42,484 nucleotides of DNA from assembly GCA_903904755.1 (NCBI GenBank), contig CAIVDV010000074.1, positions 1 to 42,484 of the forward strand. Reading direction: 5' to 3'. Position 1 is the first letter of the stretch. Every line of letters begins with the position of its first letter. The notes under the pieces were generated by a model, which was not told where the DNA came from, searched no databases, and was given only the letters and a program-made list of their open reading frames with translations. A program made the position numbers and the translations under genes. Positions 33,767-42,484 of this stretch are shown here, piece after piece. This stretch comes from an uncultured Acidobacteriaceae bacterium (GTDB lineage: Bacteria; Acidobacteriota; Terriglobia; Terriglobales; Acidobacteriaceae).

Positions 33767-34456
33767 TTACTTGGCTGCAACTGCCTGAGCCTTGGCATGG
33801 ATGACGGCATCGAGAAACACCTTGGCCGATTCCGGAACCGTGACATCACCGCTCAAAATGCGGCGTGTCGGAATGTCGCGACCATACACAGCTTCTGTTG
33901 AATCGTCATCGCGGCGAATGCCGGCGCCGGTCAGCGTAAGCCCCGCAAATGCGCCACGCGCGCGTGAGTAAGTAAGAATCTCGGTCTCCAGCTTCCAATC
34001 CGTATTGGCTGAGGCATGACGCCCAACCGGGCCAGCCGCTGCTGAAGCATCCGCGCCAAGCTGGAACTTGCTGCCAATCAGCCGCTGCATTCCGTCTTCG
34101 TTCTGGATGATCATGACCAGGTCAACGCCTTCAACACCAATCTGAAGGCCCCAACTGCCGCCCGTAATCGTGAAGAATGAGGGTGCGCTCCAGCCGCCTG
34201 CCGTGCGGCAGGTTGCCACTCCGCGCCCATTTTCCGCGCCAAAGACGAATCCGCCCTTCAGCATGTGCGGTACCACAGCCACGCAACGCGCATGCTCCAG
34301 AACCTCTTCCGGAATGCCGCTGTCTGGCGCAGCCATAATTTCGTTCAGAACCCGCGCCGCATGGTCCAGCCGGTCGTCTGTCGACGCGCGGTTGCTGCCC
34401 GCCCAGCCAATCGTTGTCATACTCAGCAGCGCCACAATCGTAATCATCTTCTTCAT
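33767..34456 (-). CDS. Secreted SYLF/YSC84-type lipid-binding protein
   Basis: The 229-residue protein starts with a signal peptide (MKKMITIVALLSMTTIGWAG). The mature part is one SYLF (DUF500/Ysc84) domain: RLDHAARVLNEIMAAPDSGIPEEVLEHARCVAVVP, GGFVFGAENGRGVATCR, WSAPSFFTITGGSWGLQIGVEGVDLVMII and a C-terminal SRARGAFAGLTLTGAGIR. The domain binds phosphoinositides in eukaryotes; bacterial members are periplasmic with unclear roles, often in stress-responsive neighbourhoods. Its length is normal. I chose the ATG at 34456 (MKKM); a GTG three codons upstream is possible. It is divergent from the Crp/Fnr gene at 34879 across a 420-base gap. Confidence 0.88.
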   Translation of the reverse strand: MKKMITIVALLSMTTIGWAGSNRASTDDRLDHAARVLNEIMAAPDSGIPEEVLEHARCVAVVPHMLKGGFVFGAENGRGVATCRTAGGWSAPSFFTITGGSWGLQIGVEGVDLVMIIQNEDGMQRLIGSKFQLGADASAAAGPVGRHASANTDWKLETEILTYSRARGAFAGLTLTGAGIRRDDDSTEAVYGRDIPTRRILSGDVTVPESAKVFLDAVIHAKAQAVAAK

Positions 34457-34878
34457 ACATCTCACCTGTTTCTACCTGTGTGCATGGTCGCTTACTTATT
34501 CGCGCAGTGGAGCCGCACAAGGTAAGTCAAACCTTAACGGTCCAATCCAATACCGTCTGAGCTAGAACGCTCAGGGTGTCTCCTCGCCCCAAAACCCCAA
34601 TCGCGAAGCTCAGCAATCGCTCACCCGTGCAATGCAACATTGGTCAAAAGGAATCACCTCCCGGAACCGCACCCGTGGAATAATTGAAAGGAGCGTCATT
34701 CAGGGCGATTTCTCGAACCAGTCTACTTTCCCCAATCTCCCGGCGCGTACAGGTGCAATCTCAGGCATCAATCCACCATTGATGATCACTGCGCACCTCA
34801 TCTGGTCCCTCACGGATTCCTGATGAGTGATCCGGATTCCGACACTTCAGCAGGCACGTCTCTGAATGCCGTTGCCGG
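34457..34878. other. Divergent intergenic region between SYLF and Crp/Fnr genes
   Basis: No coding sequence is recognisable in these 422 bases; short frames on both strands have no family features and the region is less GC-rich than its surroundings. It holds the promoters of the SYLF and Crp/Fnr genes and one clear palindrome at 34766-34784, listed separately. Confidence 0.5.
34766..34784. promoter_or_regulatory. Palindrome upstream of Crp/Fnr gene
   Basis: CATCAAT-CCACC-ATTGATG is a perfect 7-bp inverted repeat with a 5-base spacer, about 95 bases before the Crp/Fnr start. Its arms recall the FNR half-site TTGAT but in outward orientation. An autoregulatory operator is plausible, unproven. 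Confidence 0.35.
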
Positions 34879-35610
34879 ATGGAGACGTCCGGTATGCTGC
34901 ACGCCCCACCCCCTCCTCCTCCATTCGACCTTGCATCCTTCCTGGCAAATGCCGGGCTGGGGCGTCGTATCGTGCGCCTCAAGGCGAAGGAAGCTCTCTT
35001 CTCGCAGGGCGACCCATCGGACTCCGTTTTCTATCTGCAAAAGGGACGCGTCCGCATCACAGTTGTTTCCTCAGCCGGGAAGGAAGCTACCATCTCCCTG
35101 GTCAACGTCGGCGAATTCGTCGGTGAGGCCGCGCTCGCCGCATCTCCCGGCCTGCGACTTTCCAGCGCCACCGCCATCACTGCTTGCAGCGTCTTGAAGA
35201 TTTCACGCAATGAAATGATTCGCGTCATGCACTCTGAGAGTGACTTCGCCGAGATGTTCATGAAGTTCCTCATCGCCCGCGGCATGAGAACCCAGGCCGA
35301 CCTCGTCGACCAGCTCTTCAACTCCAGTGAAAAGCGCCTGGCGCGTATCCTGCTCCTTATGGCCGAATTCGGGCTTTCCGATAACCCTCATGTCGTCATT
35401 CCAAAAATCTCCCAGGAGACACTCGCCGAGATGATCGGCACTACCCGCTCGCGCGTCAGCTTCTTCATGAATCGCTTCCGCAAAATGGGCTTCATCGACT
35501 ACAACGGCCGCATCCACGTCCACAAGTCCCTGCTCAACGTTGTCCTCCACGACTGTTTTCCCGACGACGAGTCCAATCGCCCTCAAATTCAGGAAGTCCC
35601 ACCGGAATAG
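34879..35610 (+). CDS. Crp/Fnr-family transcriptional regulator (copy 1)
   Basis: The 243-residue protein has a cyclic-nucleotide-binding-fold sensor (about 25-140, with EALFSQGDPSDSVFYLQKGRVRITV and GEFVGEAAL), a long dimer helix and a C-terminal winged helix (about 170-220, with SQETLAEMIGTTRSRVSFF). The phosphate-binding Arg/Ser of true CRP is not obvious and there is no N-terminal Cys cluster of FNR, so the signal is unknown. The block ADLVDQLFNSSEKRLARILLL and the recognition helix are nearly identical to the second copy at 41567-42334. An internal ATG at 34894 has GGAG at better spacing and may be the real start. A Pro-run (PPPPPP) follows the start. A stand-alone receiver gene follows on the same strand. 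Confidence 0.9.
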   Translation: METSGMLHAPPPPPPFDLASFLANAGLGRRIVRLKAKEALFSQGDPSDSVFYLQKGRVRITVVSSAGKEATISLVNVGEFVGEAALAASPGLRLSSATAITACSVLKISRNEMIRVMHSESDFAEMFMKFLIARGMRTQADLVDQLFNSSEKRLARILLLMAEFGLSDNPHVVIPKISQETLAEMIGTTRSRVSFFMNRFRKMGFIDYNGRIHVHKSLLNVVLHDCFPDDESNRPQIQEVPPE

Positions 35611-37911: not shown

Positions 37912-39105
37912 TCACCGCTGCAATGGCTTCACTTCCCCTGCTGCAGGAACTTTCTGTGCAGGCAGTGCTTCCGTATCCGGGGCGGTGGGTTCTCTCTTCT
38001 CCGCCGCTGCCTTCGTCCCCATCGGATACACCAGGATCTGCACCTGTCCCGCTCCGGGTAAATCATTGCCACTCGCAGACTTGCCCACTCCCATCGTCTT
38101 CAGTTGTCGGTCGTCAAACCCGAAATTCTTCACCAGCGAATCACGAATCTCCACTGCCTGCGCCTGTGTCAGCACCAGGTCCTTGTCGCTGTCGCCCTCC
38201 ATCCCGGCCGACACGCGAATCACAGCCATTCCAAACGGCGCTGATACCAGAAACTGCCCCGCCTCGTTCAACACTTTTTCGTTCCTCAGCTTCACCGTAT
38301 CCCCACCGGCAAACACCTGGCTCACGGCATAGGTGAAGGTCTTGGCAGGCGCTTCAGCCGGCAACGCCTCCACTGCATTCGCGGTCAGCGTTTCACTGTC
38401 CTCATAGCCACGCTTCTTGAAGAAACCGCTCAGCAGGAAGTTGTGTTTCATCGCCTCCATATTCTCCCGGAAACTCGTCACCCCAATCTGTGCCGATGCT
38501 ACTGTCGCCTTCAGGCCCGCTGTGGAATCCGTCAGGTTGTTATACAGTTGCCGGTCGTTCACCAGCGCTCCCACCGTTCCGGTTCCGGCATCGATCTTCG
38601 CGCTCAGCGAGTTCAGGTGTGCCGTGGCTTCCGTCGTATTCGCCAGCGCTTGTTTTCCGCTGTCCAGCAGGGTGCTTGCCTTCTTGAACAGGTCAGTCAC
38701 TTCCAGCGGCGGCAGACTCGCAATCGTCTCTCCGTCCCGAACCTCCGGCACTCCCTTCGATCCGAACGAAACCGCAAGATACTGGTTGCCCAGCACGCCC
38801 TCGGTCTCAATGGATGCAACAGAATCCTGCTTCACAATCTCATGCGTTGCATCCGTCAGCTCCATCACCACCGTCACCTTGTCGGTCGGCACGTGCGGCA
38901 GCTCAATGCGCAACACCGTACCGCTATGCACGCCGCCCACCTGCACATCCGCGCCGCTGGCAAGGCCCGCCACATTATCAAACTGCGCTCTCAGTTGATA
39001 CGTAGAACTGAAAAGGTAATGCTTGCTGCCGATGATGAACACACCCGCTGCCAGAATCCCGAGTGTTAAAACGATAAAGCCACCGAGCCGCGCTGCTCTC
39101 GACAT
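37912..39105 (-). CDS. mlaD: MlaD/MCE-domain protein with OmpA-like C-terminus
   Basis: The 397-residue protein has one N-terminal membrane anchor (about 8-27) and an MCE domain (about 38-115: YQLRAQFDNVAGLASGADVQVGGVHSGTV, then GNQYLAVSFGSKG). A helical stretch (about 130-225) follows, and then a C-terminal domain (about 255-375) that looks like the OmpA/MotB peptidoglycan-binding fold: VLTQAQAVEIRDSLVKNFGF, LKTMGVGKSASGNDLPGAGQVQILV. The usual Arg-Arg of the OmpA motif is replaced by Gly-Gln, so peptidoglycan binding is uncertain. MCE proteins carry lipids between the membranes together with an MlaE/MlaF transporter, encoded directly upstream here. AGGAG precedes the ATG; the gap to the ATPase gene is 8 bases. 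The tail after the domain is Pro/Glu/Ala-rich. Confidence 0.87.
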   Translation of the reverse strand: MSRAARLGGFIVLTLGILAAGVFIIGSKHYLFSSTYQLRAQFDNVAGLASGADVQVGGVHSGTVLRIELPHVPTDKVTVVMELTDATHEIVKQDSVASIETEGVLGNQYLAVSFGSKGVPEVRDGETIASLPPLEVTDLFKKASTLLDSGKQALANTTEATAHLNSLSAKIDAGTGTVGALVNDRQLYNNLTDSTAGLKATVASAQIGVTSFRENMEAMKHNFLLSGFFKKRGYEDSETLTANAVEALPAEAPAKTFTYAVSQVFAGGDTVKLRNEKVLNEAGQFLVSAPFGMAVIRVSAGMEGDSDKDLVLTQAQAVEIRDSLVKNFGFDDRQLKTMGVGKSASGNDLPGAGQVQILVYPMGTKAAAEKREPTAPDTEALPAQKVPAAGEVKPLQR

Positions 39106-39113
39106 ATGCTCTC

Positions 39114-39896
39114 CTACGACTGCTTTAGAAACAGCCTTACAAAATCGTTGTCCGACCGTTTCAGGTCATCAAAGGTTCCTTCAATTACAACGTGGCCCTT
39201 GTCCAACAGGACCAGTCTGTCTGCAATCGTCTTCGCACTGTGCATATCATGCGTCACCACAATCGACGACATATGTCGCTCTTCCTTCAGCTTCAGCACC
39301 AGATCATCAATCTCGCCGGAACCAATCGGGTCCAGGCCGGCAGTAGGTTCATCCAGCAGCAGAATCTCGGGGTTCAGCGCCAACGCACGCGCCAGCCCCA
39401 CCCGCTTCTGCATGCCACCGGAAAGCTCCGATGGCATCTTCTTCAAACTCCCCTCAATGCCCACTTCAGCCAGTAAAGTATTCACGCGCTCGCTGCGCTC
39501 TGCAGCTGTCATACCTTTCCGGTGGTGATCCAGCGGAAACGCAACATTGTCCTCTACCGTCAGCGAGTCATACAATGCAGCGTGTTGAAACAGAAATCCT
39601 GTTCGCTTGCGAATTTCGCCCAGTTCGTCGAGCGTAAGTCCGTTCAAGTCCTGGCCCAGAATGCGAACACTCCCTGCGTCCGGCTTCTGCAGGCCAATCA
39701 CCATCCGCAGCAGCACGCTCTTGCCGGTTCCGCTGCGACCCAGCACTGCCAGCGTCTTCCCACTGGCCACACTCAGGCTCACCCCATCCAACACGCGGTG
39801 CGTTCCAAACGACTGATGCACCTGGTCAATCGCAACAGCCAGGCTCGTCACAGGTTCGGTTTTCTTGCTCTCCTGCATTGCCCCGGGCGCGGTCAT
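39114..39896 (-). CDS. mlaF: ABC transporter ATPase, MlaF type
   Basis: The 260-residue protein is a complete nucleotide-binding subunit. Walker A is GRSGTGKS, the Q-loop region is GFLFQHAALYDSLTVEDNVAFPL, the signature is LSGGMQKRVGLARALAL, Walker B is ILLLDEPTAGLDP and the switch is VVTHDM. GFLFQxAALYDSLTVxENVAFPL is typical of the MlaF/Ttg2A branch. It powers lipid movement by the MlaE-type permease. The ATG at 39896 overlaps the permease stop by four bases (ATGA), so the two are translationally coupled. A longer open frame upstream runs antiparallel to nothing useful and overlaps the permease gene; it is not the real start. Confidence 0.93.
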   Translation of the reverse strand: MTAPGAMQESKKTEPVTSLAVAIDQVHQSFGTHRVLDGVSLSVASGKTLAVLGRSGTGKSVLLRMVIGLQKPDAGSVRILGQDLNGLTLDELGEIRKRTGFLFQHAALYDSLTVEDNVAFPLDHHRKGMTAAERSERVNTLLAEVGIEGSLKKMPSELSGGMQKRVGLARALALNPEILLLDEPTAGLDPIGSGEIDDLVLKLKEERHMSSIVVTHDMHSAKTIADRLVLLDKGHVVIEGTFDDLKRSDNDFVRLFLKQS

Positions 39897-40735
39897 GGGA
39901 ACACCGCGAGAATGAACTTCACCAGGACCACGTCCGCCAGAATCACAAACAGCGAACCCAGGACCACGGAGTTCGTCGCGGCACGTCCTACACCCGCAGC
40001 ACCGCCGTGTGTCCGCATCCCATGGAAGCAGGCAATCAACCCGATAATCAGCCCATACACAGCAGTTTTGAATGTCGGCGGAAGAAAAGCATTCAGCGTC
40101 GCACCATAAAAGCCGTCGTTGATGAACTGATGAAACGACAACGGCTCTACCATCGCCTGTGTCGCCCATCCGGTCAGCAGCGCCGAGGCATCTGCCGCAA
40201 GAGTCAGCAACGGCAGCATCACAATGCACGCCAGAATCCGGGGTGCCGCGAGCAACCGGTACGGATTCACAGCAGAGACTTCAATCGCGTCAATCTGCTC
40301 CGTAACCTTCATTGACGCCAGTTCTGCGCCTATCCCGGCACCAACCCGCCCAGACACCACGAGCCCGGTAATGATCGGTCCCATAATCTCAATCACCGAG
40401 TAAACCAGCGTTGCCGGGAACAGCGATTTCGCACCAAAATGCGCGAGGCTGTAACGAGCCTCAAGGGACACCACAACACCAATCGCAGCCCCGGCCATCA
40501 CCACCAGCGAAAGCGACCGCGCACCCACCTCGTCCATCTGGCGAATCAACTCGCGCCATTCATATGGCGGCGTCACACCCGCTTGCACAACCTGCCAGAA
40601 AAAGCTGCCCAAATTTCCAAACCACTCCAGCGCAATCATGATGGGCCGCAGCGGCGACACGCTCGCAGTTGCAGCGGGCTTCCCTGCGCTTGCTGGTGTG
40701 ATTCCAGTCGATTCTGTTACAGTTGCGCCGATCAT
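39893..40735 (-). CDS. mlaE: ABC transporter permease, MlaE type
   Basis: The 280-residue protein has about five to six membrane helices. It carries the MlaE signature ALVVSGRVGAGIGAELASMKVTEQIDAIEVSAVNP (here GLVVSGRVGAGIGAEL...) and the following PRILACIVMLPLLT. A short N-terminal Ala/Thr/Pro-rich stretch precedes the first helix. It forms the membrane part of the Mla lipid transport complex with the MlaF ATPase and the MCE protein. The ATG at 40735 overlaps the stop of the upstream exported protein by four bases; the stop overlaps the ATPase start by four bases. This four-gene chain points to one transcript. Confidence 0.93.
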   Translation of the reverse strand: MIGATVTESTGITPASAGKPAATASVSPLRPIMIALEWFGNLGSFFWQVVQAGVTPPYEWRELIRQMDEVGARSLSLVVMAGAAIGVVVSLEARYSLAHFGAKSLFPATLVYSVIEIMGPIITGLVVSGRVGAGIGAELASMKVTEQIDAIEVSAVNPYRLLAAPRILACIVMLPLLTLAADASALLTGWATQAMVEPLSFHQFINDGFYGATLNAFLPPTFKTAVYGLIIGLIACFHGMRTHGGAAGVGRAATNSVVLGSLFVILADVVLVKFILAVFP

Positions 40736-41490
40736 TCGTCCAGTCCTGACCCGGCAGCACCATGGCGATTATCAAAGTGCCACCGATGCATCCACGAGTG
40801 AACCCGTACCGGGCGAAACTCCAGAAGAACATTGGATCCCGCATCGCTCAGCAGGCTGTAGCTCCCCATCCGTAGCGCATCCATCGCTCCATATCGCCGC
40901 GGGTACCATCCGAAGACAGCAGTCATCGACCCTGCATACGGAGATGCCAGGGCCGAAAACGAAAAGGTGGCCCGCCGACTGCCAAGGTGCCTTGATGTCA
41001 GAGTCGATACCAGAGCATGGCCCACACGCGGAAAGAACCCTGTGCATTGGCAGCGGTAATACATCGTGTCTTCCCGTAGCGTCTCTGCCAGGGCATAATG
41101 CACGGTTGTACTCACAGCGTTCGTGCCATAGTCTGACCCGAGTCGCTTCGTGTAACCACTCATACCCTGCCTCCACTCCGGCGGTGAGTTCGTGGCCTGA
41201 TCCAGGCCTGCCTTTAACAGGGAAGTGGCGAGCGGATACGGACCGAAGGCGTTGTACAAATAGTTGTGAAACATAAGGGTCTGGGATGGTCGAGGCACCG
41301 CGAACACGGTCACCGGAACAACGACGGCAGGAGCATCTACCGCATCCTGCGCGCTTGTCGCCGGCTCTTGCCCCAGTGCTCCGGCCCGACAGGTTGCGAG
41401 CACTACCAGCACCAGGCACGCGAATCGAAATTGTGCGTTGCGTCTTGTCGTCACAGAATCCCAATCTCCCCCAGCCATCCGGTGGAGCAC
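40732..41490 (-). CDS. Exported conserved protein at head of Mla operon
   Basis: The 252-residue protein has a signal-like hydrophobic stretch (FRFACLVLVVLATCRAGALG) and then an Ala/Val-rich linker. The main domain contains FHNYLYNAFGPYPLATSLLKAGLDQATNSPPEWRQG, HYALAETLREDTMYYRCQCTGFFPRVGHALVSTL and APYAGSMTAVFGWYPRRYGAMDAL. I associate this type with Acidobacteria but know no function. The pattern of short Gly/aromatic strands would fit an envelope or outer-membrane location. The start is either GTG at 41490 or ATG at 41478; neither has a strong ribosome site. Coupling with mlaE by a 4-base overlap suggests that it works with lipid transport, perhaps at the outer membrane. Confidence 0.72.
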   Translation of the reverse strand: MLHRMAGGDWDSVTTRRNAQFRFACLVLVVLATCRAGALGQEPATSAQDAVDAPAVVVPVTVFAVPRPSQTLMFHNYLYNAFGPYPLATSLLKAGLDQATNSPPEWRQGMSGYTKRLGSDYGTNAVSTTVHYALAETLREDTMYYRCQCTGFFPRVGHALVSTLTSRHLGSRRATFSFSALASPYAGSMTAVFGWYPRRYGAMDALRMGSYSLLSDAGSNVLLEFRPVRVHSWMHRWHFDNRHGAAGSGLDE

Positions 41491-41566: not shown

Positions 41567-42334
41567 TCAGGCGTGCAGAACCACATTCTTCAGCGAGCTC
41601 TTCACGCGCATTCCGGCGCTGTCATATTCCACATAGCCAAGCTCGCGAAAGCGATTCAGGAAGAAGCTGACCCGCGATCGTGTCGTGCCAATCATCTCGG
41701 CCAGTGTCTCCTGGCTGATCCGGGCAATGATTGCAGGCGATGTTGAATCCTCTCCTTGATTCGCCATCAGCAGCAACAGACGTGCCAGCCGCTTTTCACT
41801 GGAGTTGAACAACTGGTCCACCAGGTCAGCTTCCATGCGAATCTTCCGCGCCACCAGGTGAGCCATGAAGTGCTCCGTGAATCCCGCTTCGCGTTGCAGC
41901 AGCGACTGCATCACCTTGCGGTCTATCCGCACTACGGTGCTGCTGCCCAGGGAACTTGCCGAAGCAAGTCGCGACGGCTCGCCGGCAAGCGCCGATTCTC
42001 CAAAATAGCTGCCAGCGGGAAGGTGCGCAATCACGGCTTCTTTCCCGTTCTTCGACACGACTGTCAGCTTCACCTGTCCGCATTGAATGTAGTAGACCGA
42101 ATGCGACGTATCCCCTTGCAGAAATATCGAATCTCCAGGGAGATAGCTGTGGATTGTCTTGCCGACGATGTGGTTCTCAAGGAAGAGATCAAAGCTGAAG
42201 TCTGAACTGCGCTGTGGCGCAGGCTGGGCTTTCACGGGAGCCAGACGAAGGCGTGTTCTCGATGAATCGGAGGTTGCCCGGTTGCTCGGAAAGTTAAATC
42301 CAGAGGAGCGTAGCGTTGCAGAGTTCGTAGCCAT
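41567..42334 (-). CDS. Crp/Fnr-family transcriptional regulator (copy 2)
   Basis: The 255-residue protein has a Ser/Arg-rich N-terminus of about 50 residues, a cyclic-nucleotide-binding-type sensor (LPGDSIFLQGDTSHSVYYIQCGQVKLTVV, GSYFGESALAG), a dimer helix and a winged helix (SQETLAEMIGTTRSRVSFFLNRF). It is a paralogue of the 34879-35610 gene, near-identical in the dimer helix and recognition helix, so both may bind the same DNA site while sensing different signals. It lies 76 bases upstream of the exported protein/Mla operon on the same strand. No good ribosome site is seen before the ATG at 42334, and an IS3-type element begins only some 30 bases upstream, so its native promoter may be displaced. 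Confidence 0.88.
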   Translation of the reverse strand: MATNSATLRSSGFNFPSNRATSDSSRTRLRLAPVKAQPAPQRSSDFSFDLFLENHIVGKTIHSYLPGDSIFLQGDTSHSVYYIQCGQVKLTVVSKNGKEAVIAHLPAGSYFGESALAGEPSRLASASSLGSSTVVRIDRKVMQSLLQREAGFTEHFMAHLVARKIRMEADLVDQLFNSSEKRLARLLLLMANQGEDSTSPAIIARISQETLAEMIGTTRSRVSFFLNRFRELGYVEYDSAGMRVKSSLKNVVLHA

Positions 42335-42407: not shown

Positions 42408-42484
42408 ATGGCACGAGGAAAGAAGCACACACCGGAGCAAATCGTAACGCTGCTTCGGCAGGTTGAAGTGGCAGTGGCGAACGG
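42408..42484 (+). mobile_element. IS3-family transposase OrfA, 5' part (cut by window end)
   Basis: The frame starts MARGKKHTPEQIVTLLRQVE and continues VAVANG to the window end. KKHTPEQIVxxLRQxEV is the start of OrfA (helix-turn-helix subunit) in IS3-family elements. AGGAG lies a few bases before the ATG. OrfB and the right end lie outside the window, so completeness and activity cannot be judged. Confidence 0.85.

Follow-up and report, generated by a model that had tools for sequence, protein, structure and literature searches.

A predicted Mla-type lipid transporter of an uncultured Acidobacteriaceae bacterium with an OmpA-like extension of MlaD and an optional exported partner

The DNA analyzed here (the window, meaning the whole stretch of 42,484 nucleotides: contig CAIVDV010000074.1 of assembly GCA_903904755.1, from an uncultured Acidobacteriaceae bacterium) carries a four-gene operon for an exported protein (EXP), the permease MlaE, the ATPase MlaF and an MlaD-type MCE protein extended by an OmpA-like domain. 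Judged from sequence, the operon encodes a minimal Mla-type lipid ATP-binding cassette transporter composed of MlaE, MlaF and a long MlaD, for which phospholipid transport is predicted; what is new is the OmpA-like tip on MlaD, together with EXP. The reading preferred here, with a probability of roughly 0.6, is that lipid crosses the periplasm through a transporter whose OmpA-like tip has been repurposed and to which EXP is an accessory. EXP itself is an optional, clade-restricted partner of the fusion transporter.

Transporter core and the fused MCE protein

The host genome comprises 4.22 Mb in 83 contigs and is 97.49% complete; the operon lies on its contig C74. The features of the operon are as follows.

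40732..41490, minus strand: EXP, exported protein, 252 aa from GTG 41490 (open reading frames)
39893..40735, minus strand: mlaE permease (open reading frames; PF02405)
39114..39896, minus strand: mlaF ATPase (ABC_tran, E 7.8e-36)
37912..39105, minus strand: mlaD-type MCE protein, 397 aa (PF02470; structural model; PDB profile)
38023..38358, minus strand: OmpA-like domain of the MCE protein, residues 250-361 (Pfam on relatives, PDB profile, fold match)

An earlier note on this DNA had described the four genes as one unit, and the frames and junctions agree: EXP and mlaE overlap by 4 bases (the mlaE start codon overlapping the EXP stop), mlaE and mlaF likewise overlap by 4 bases, and 8 bases lie between mlaF and the MCE gene. 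The order EXP-mlaE-mlaF-mlaD is found again in many genomes. A scan for promoters and terminators gave signals no more frequent than in shuffled sequences. MlaE is a member of the MlaE permease family (PF02405, 2.4e-60, 204 bits, cut-off 22.5). MlaF, beside its ABC_tran match, contains the motifs GRSGTGKS, LSGGM and LLLDEP, which we take to be Walker A, the signature and Walker B, respectively, and scores 175.8 bits with the MlaF equivalog model, under the cut-off of 441. The product of the last gene, encoded together with mlaE and mlaF, has an MlaD-family MCE domain (PF02470, 3.5e-14, 53 bits, cut-off 25.1) behind an N-terminal transmembrane (TM) helix.

In the structural model the MCE protein consists of the TM helix (residues 3-31), the MCE domain (~35-130), a helical stretch (~136-231), the OmpA-like domain (~250-361) and a low-confidence tail; with 397 aa and helices after the MCE domain (within 136-231, at low confidence) it has the dimensions of a long MlaD. 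Mean predicted local distance difference test score (pLDDT) is 58, with the OmpA-like part mostly at 64-85. Taken alone, the window's C-terminus stays below the cut-off of 27.2 for OmpA family PF00691, scoring 16.6 bits (E 0.0099). In an alignment of 20 MCE fusion proteins, the window protein included (alignment A2), every one of the 20 has a PF00691 match with E ≤ 0.1, down to 8.2e-12. The A2 profile finds MlaD structures in the PDB at positions 7-142 and OmpA-like domains within 249-351, the latter being the C-terminal domains of OprF, RmpM, Pal and OmpA at 9.8e-7 to ~3e-3, and model residues 254-361 superpose on the peptidoglycan-binding domain of TagL (Z 14.9, root-mean-square deviation 1.7 over 106 positions). 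Because the Pfam matches of A2, the PDB profile and the predicted fold agree, the MCE-OmpA-like fusion, which the earlier note had read from the letters of the window, is real. Among the papers listed by searches of open-access literature, none describes such a fusion in its title or abstract.

In OmpA of A. baumannii, D271 and R286 bind diaminopimelate (PMC6572160, in the part of that report accessible to us). Ungapped alignment with the same 15-residue spacing places Gly301 and Gln316 of the window protein at the positions of this Asp and Arg, so that the window domain has neither residue of a canonical peptidoglycan binder; loss of the usual Arg features, put in the earlier note as a missing Arg pair, is supported. 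Across 56 sequences the Asp position is occupied by G in 46, D in 5, S in 3, H in 1 and N in 1, and the Arg position by R in 50, Q in 5 and W in 1. Divided by the presence of EXP, the 38 EXP-linked rows have G 37 and H 1 at the Asp position and R 36 and Q 2 at the Arg position; the 18 EXP-less rows have G 9, D 5, S 3 and N 1, and R 14, Q 3 and W 1. Asp and Arg are both kept in four related loci (L072, L129, L130 and L131), and no Arg pair precedes the last strand in any of the aligned rows listed. The domain resembles the peptidoglycan-binding domains of OprF, OmpA, Pal and TagL in profile and fold, but unlike these it is fused to an MCE protein; the diaminopimelate-binding Asp is gone, as is the Arg in the window. 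The OmpA-like tip appears to descend from a peptidoglycan-binding domain, with loss of the Asp in the window's clade and also of the Arg in the window itself; since the fold is kept while the classical binding residues are lost, canonical peptidoglycan anchoring in this clade is unlikely.

The exported protein, its linkage and its history

The start of EXP, judged by eye, is more likely GTG 41454 (240 aa), preceded by GGGGGAGA, than GTG 41490; it would give a more usual signal peptide, with a good ribosome-binding sequence upstream. EXP has no family match in Pfam or NCBIfam at E ≤ 1, in keeping with its earlier description as an uncharacterised exported protein; a Pfam search of 69 EXP sequences with E values up to 10 allowed picked up four stray families, each in only one or two of the sequences, and the EXP profile gave chance-level rows among PDB sequences (best E 0.23). 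The EXP model (mean pLDDT 83) is mostly helical. Its helices are rich in small residues and mildly hydrophobic, a 19-residue stretch with mean hydropathy >1.6 being present in 3 of the 69 sequences. The fold search gave no significant match; the top-ranked folds are complex I and TIM chains (Foldseek E 0.65, Z 6.8, at noise level for helical models), which we take to represent the Tim17/22/23 family and regard as a weak lead only. No Pfam match to MlaA (PF04333) was found for EXP, nor was an MlaA fold among the matches listed. All 69 sequences of the EXP subfamily share a CxC motif and 15 further invariant positions, and CxC is present in 5/27 more distant members. EXP is a branch of a multi-copy acidobacterial exported family with matches in 41 of 61 genomes (the host and 60 relatives); the wider family has a conserved E/Q-D-P/T-x-Y core (L006-L032).

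Linkage of EXP to the transporter was evaluated on 76 loci, all in Acidobacteriota records, that were obtained by scanning contigs with a profile from the EXP alignment (a scan with EXP alone returned none). A locus was called linked if an mlaE frame lies ≤600 bases from the end of EXP, and unlinked if there is none and >1500 bases of contig are left; five loci end too soon, leaving 71 informative ones. EXP stands directly before mlaE in 45 of these and is unlinked in 26. In 38 of the 45 linked loci the start and stop codons overlap by 4 bases in the mlaE frame (23 GTGA, 9 TTGA and 6 ATGA, with start codons as read from the frames). In two assemblies (L139/L161 and L144/L185) one copy is linked and another is not.

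Loci fetched with EXP cannot tell how often the fusion lacks EXP, and genome samples were used for that purpose, the survey being one of Acidobacteriota. The fusion, host included, is present in 12/61 genomes (≥45% identity), in 22/200 of the family and in 10/396 of the phylum. One of these fusion genomes (G034), whose contig begins inside the MCE gene, is uninformative on EXP and was not counted. Among 30 informative fusion genomes, EXP precedes mlaE in ten (G000, G019, G020, G118, G120, G167, G186, G209, G212 and G225; in G212, G118 and G225 the operon is divided over two contigs) and is absent from that position in 20, including six of the window's genus; the 20 are made up of 8, 5 and 7 from three successive sets of regions, and two in the second set are ambiguous (G219, where EXP lies at the extreme end of a different contig, and G158, where mlaE is in two frames). 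A tblastn search with seven EXP queries at E ≤ 0.01 found none in the 21 loci without EXP (the uninformative one included). Because EXP is absent before mlaE in 20/30 fusion genomes, the fusion transporter can evidently work without it. Conservation of EXP with mlaEFD, on which the earlier note had made its interpretation depend, therefore holds inside the EXP clade (the 45/71 loci) and fails outside it. In the 200 family genomes (thresholds E ≤ 1e-20 for EXP and 1e-40 for the fusion, both lists being taken as the same 200 genomes), 11 have both, 11 the fusion only, 12 EXP only and 166 neither (Fisher p 1.3e-6, uncorrected for kinship); of the EXP-only genomes 7 are at least 96% complete and 5 are under 90%. 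At E ≤ 1e-35, EXP-like proteins occur in 16/396 phylum genomes, 11 of which belong to two other families; none of the six such loci checked has mlaE within its 3.5 kb.

The history of this association was examined with two midpoint-rooted trees: an MCE tree of 56 rows (five repeat-record loci and all short or frame-broken MCE copies left out) and an EXP tree of the 76 loci minus one whose frame is shorter than 150 residues. A single clade of the MCE tree (100/100) unites all 38 EXP-linked rows with the six EXP-less ones from the window's genus, and two of the EXP-linked rows diverge first in it. Outside this clade fall the remaining 12 rows that lack EXP, four of them from the same family and the rest from other families. 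Two changes suffice on this tree, read as one gain of EXP at the base of the clade and one loss in the window's genus, and EXP would accordingly have been gained after the fusion arose. Because the window copy is EXP-linked whereas the six other fusion loci sampled from its genus lack EXP, differential loss or transfer of EXP is likely. Linked and unlinked copies are intermixed on the EXP tree, with 12 changes vs a shuffled mean of 26.

Absent partners, proposed mechanism and alternatives

None of the 61 genomes has a match to the MlaA or the MlaC family (0/61 for each; E. coli and Caulobacter match as controls), and separate mlaA or mlaC genes elsewhere in the host, named in the earlier note as what would count against it, were accordingly sought genome-wide and rejected. 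No MlaB (STAS) protein is encoded among the four genes of the operon, the rest of the genome not having been searched for it; the earlier statement that MlaA, MlaB and MlaC are all missing thus stands for MlaA and MlaC in the genome and for MlaB in the cluster. A PqiC-type lipoprotein as outer partner was likewise rejected, PF03886 being absent from the one genome searched, the host's. The further proposal that EXP and the C-terminal domain replace the periplasmic carrier and the outer-membrane partner finds no support in that form: MlaA and MlaC are absent in 61/61 genomes regardless of EXP, 20/30 fusion genomes have no EXP, and EXP occurs without the fusion in 12/200 genomes. Since published work places MlaABC mostly in Proteobacteria, with long MlaD as the common form (PMC10665443, as far as the accessible part of that paper goes), the absence of MlaA and MlaC needs no special replacement. 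The host has a second MCE protein (G000:C15:46329-46895) and a second MlaE (G000:C24:12929-13552) on separate contigs apart from the operon, and MCE protein matches occur in 60/61 genomes, most at ~25-33% identity over the MCE part; the window operon is therefore seen as an additional system.

The closest published counterpart is MlaEFD of Veillonella parvula, a three-component system with a long MlaD that was proposed to bridge the periplasm (Grasekamp et al., 2023, PMC10665443); according to the accessible part of that report, long MlaD proteins average ~374 aa and some end in a beta-barrel tip. In both systems MlaA and MlaC are missing, and the long MlaD combines a TM helix, an MCE domain and a helical stretch. 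Whereas the V. parvula C-terminus is, in the same accessible part, a predicted ten-stranded outer-membrane beta-barrel, that of the window is OmpA-like and is joined, in one clade, by EXP; neither Acidobacteri- nor OmpA is mentioned in the main text of PMC10665443. With MlaFEDB-MlaC-MlaA of Escherichia coli the operon shares the families of MlaE, MlaF and the MCE domain, but E. coli has a short MlaD, a STAS protein MlaB, a shuttle MlaC and a lipoprotein MlaA, and the six-part proteobacterial pathway is not what the window encodes. The Mla-Pqi chimera Mpc of Brucella abortus is similar in being an MCE system proposed to reach across the periplasm, with no MlaC found in the Brucella genome; it differs in its PqiC-like lipoprotein MpcA, whose family PF03886 is the one not found in the host (PMC12436622, for the part of the text accessible to us).

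In the preferred reading, MlaD would be anchored in the inner membrane and presumably form a hexameric MCE ring, as known MCE proteins do, from which a helical stalk, with a tunnel by analogy to the same proteins, would extend into the periplasm and end in the OmpA-like domain. Lipid would move along ring and stalk, in either direction, with no MlaC shuttle. The tip would most likely provide spacing or a docking collar close to the wall or the outer membrane and not act as a canonical peptidoglycan anchor, and EXP would be a clade-specific, exported helical accessory, probably on the periplasmic or outer-membrane side and dispensable for the core function. Comparative data favour this accessory role for EXP; replacement of MlaC and MlaA by EXP and the tip is hypothetical. 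Several observations weigh against the proposal as a whole. EXP loci without mlaEFD are interleaved on the EXP tree, and EXP may therefore have a job of its own; the window rows are long branches that are not firmly placed in either tree; and EXP, with no significant fold match and with helices that are not strongly hydrophobic, is ambiguous as to its placement. The MCE ring and stalk have pLDDT values mostly of 33-63 (blocks of ten), so the stalk geometry lacks firm model support, and the second MCE protein and second MlaE of the host could carry the main lipid transport.

Other readings of EXP and of the tip were weighed against the same data. The multi-copy nature of the EXP family in 41/61 acidobacterial genomes, the CxC motif in 5/27 distant members, the 26/71 unlinked loci and the two assemblies with linked and unlinked copies would all fit an envelope or stress protein that is unrelated to the transporter and just expressed along with it; this is somewhat unlikely, given that the long-kept adjacency and gene overlap in one clade exceed the usual effect of shared regulation. 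That the OmpA-like domain still anchors the stalk at the wall, through other residues, draws on the kept fold and on the four loci with both Asp and Arg, but is unlikely in view of the 51/56 sequences in which the equivalent residue is not Asp, and of the Gln that replaces Arg in the window. EXP could also be a functional stand-in for MlaA or MlaC, the role proposed in the earlier note, and carry lipid from the OmpA-like tip to the outer membrane or back, as its export, helical fold, first place in the operon and 4-base overlap in 38/45 linked loci would allow in a genome with no MlaA or MlaC; such a role is quite improbable, however, as six fusion operons of the window's genus have no EXP, EXP-only genomes exist, and no MlaA- or MlaC-like fold is among the matches listed (a weak test, the helical matches being at noise level).

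The boldest version is a very doubtful one: that a peptidoglycan-binding domain was joined to MlaD and, its wall-binding residues gone, came to serve as the docking collar of EXP, which would be a new type of helical exported lipid-transfer protein without homology to MlaA, MlaC or PqiC and would pass lipid to or from the outer membrane. If true, Acidobacteria would have built their own way to complete a trans-periplasmic lipid conduit. Most two-membrane bacteria pose the question of how lipid travels to and from the outer membrane when MlaA and MlaC are lacking. The present system would add a second kind of long-MlaD tip, with wall-binding residues kept or lost in different relatives, and a candidate accessory, EXP, that some close relatives have and others lack. 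These contrasts amount to a natural experiment through which the question can be tested in culturable Acidobacteria.

Neighbouring genes

Two further features of the window lie close to the operon.

41567..42334, minus strand: CRP/FNR-type regulator just upstream of the operon (PF00027 1.5e-19, PF13545 1.5e-11)
33767-34465, minus strand: exported SYLF/Ysc84 protein (PF04366), 3.4 kb from the MCE gene

A second CRP/FNR-type regulator is located at 34879-35610, and the two regulators thus flank the operon. A CRP homolog is near 16/45 EXP-linked loci, 8/26 unlinked EXP loci and 0/18 EXP-less fusion loci; the upstream CRP/FNR-type protein is a possible regulator of the operon. The SYLF/Ysc84 protein is a candidate lipid-binding partner. 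Such a protein stands directly downstream of MCE (158-213 bp, same strand) in 4/53 fusion loci (L067 8325-9029, L068 4595-5299, L070 7760-8476 and L197 10766-11458, the PF04366 match having been checked for three of the listed proteins) and also occurs in 4/26 unlinked EXP loci. A 192-residue protein (L063 9286-9864 and equivalents) with no Pfam match at E ≤ 0.001 is near EXP in 24/76 loci, including some without mlaEFD. The contig ends inside a plus-strand frame (42408-42484) reading MARGKKHTPEQIVTLLRQ..., which is presumably the start of an IS3-type transposase.

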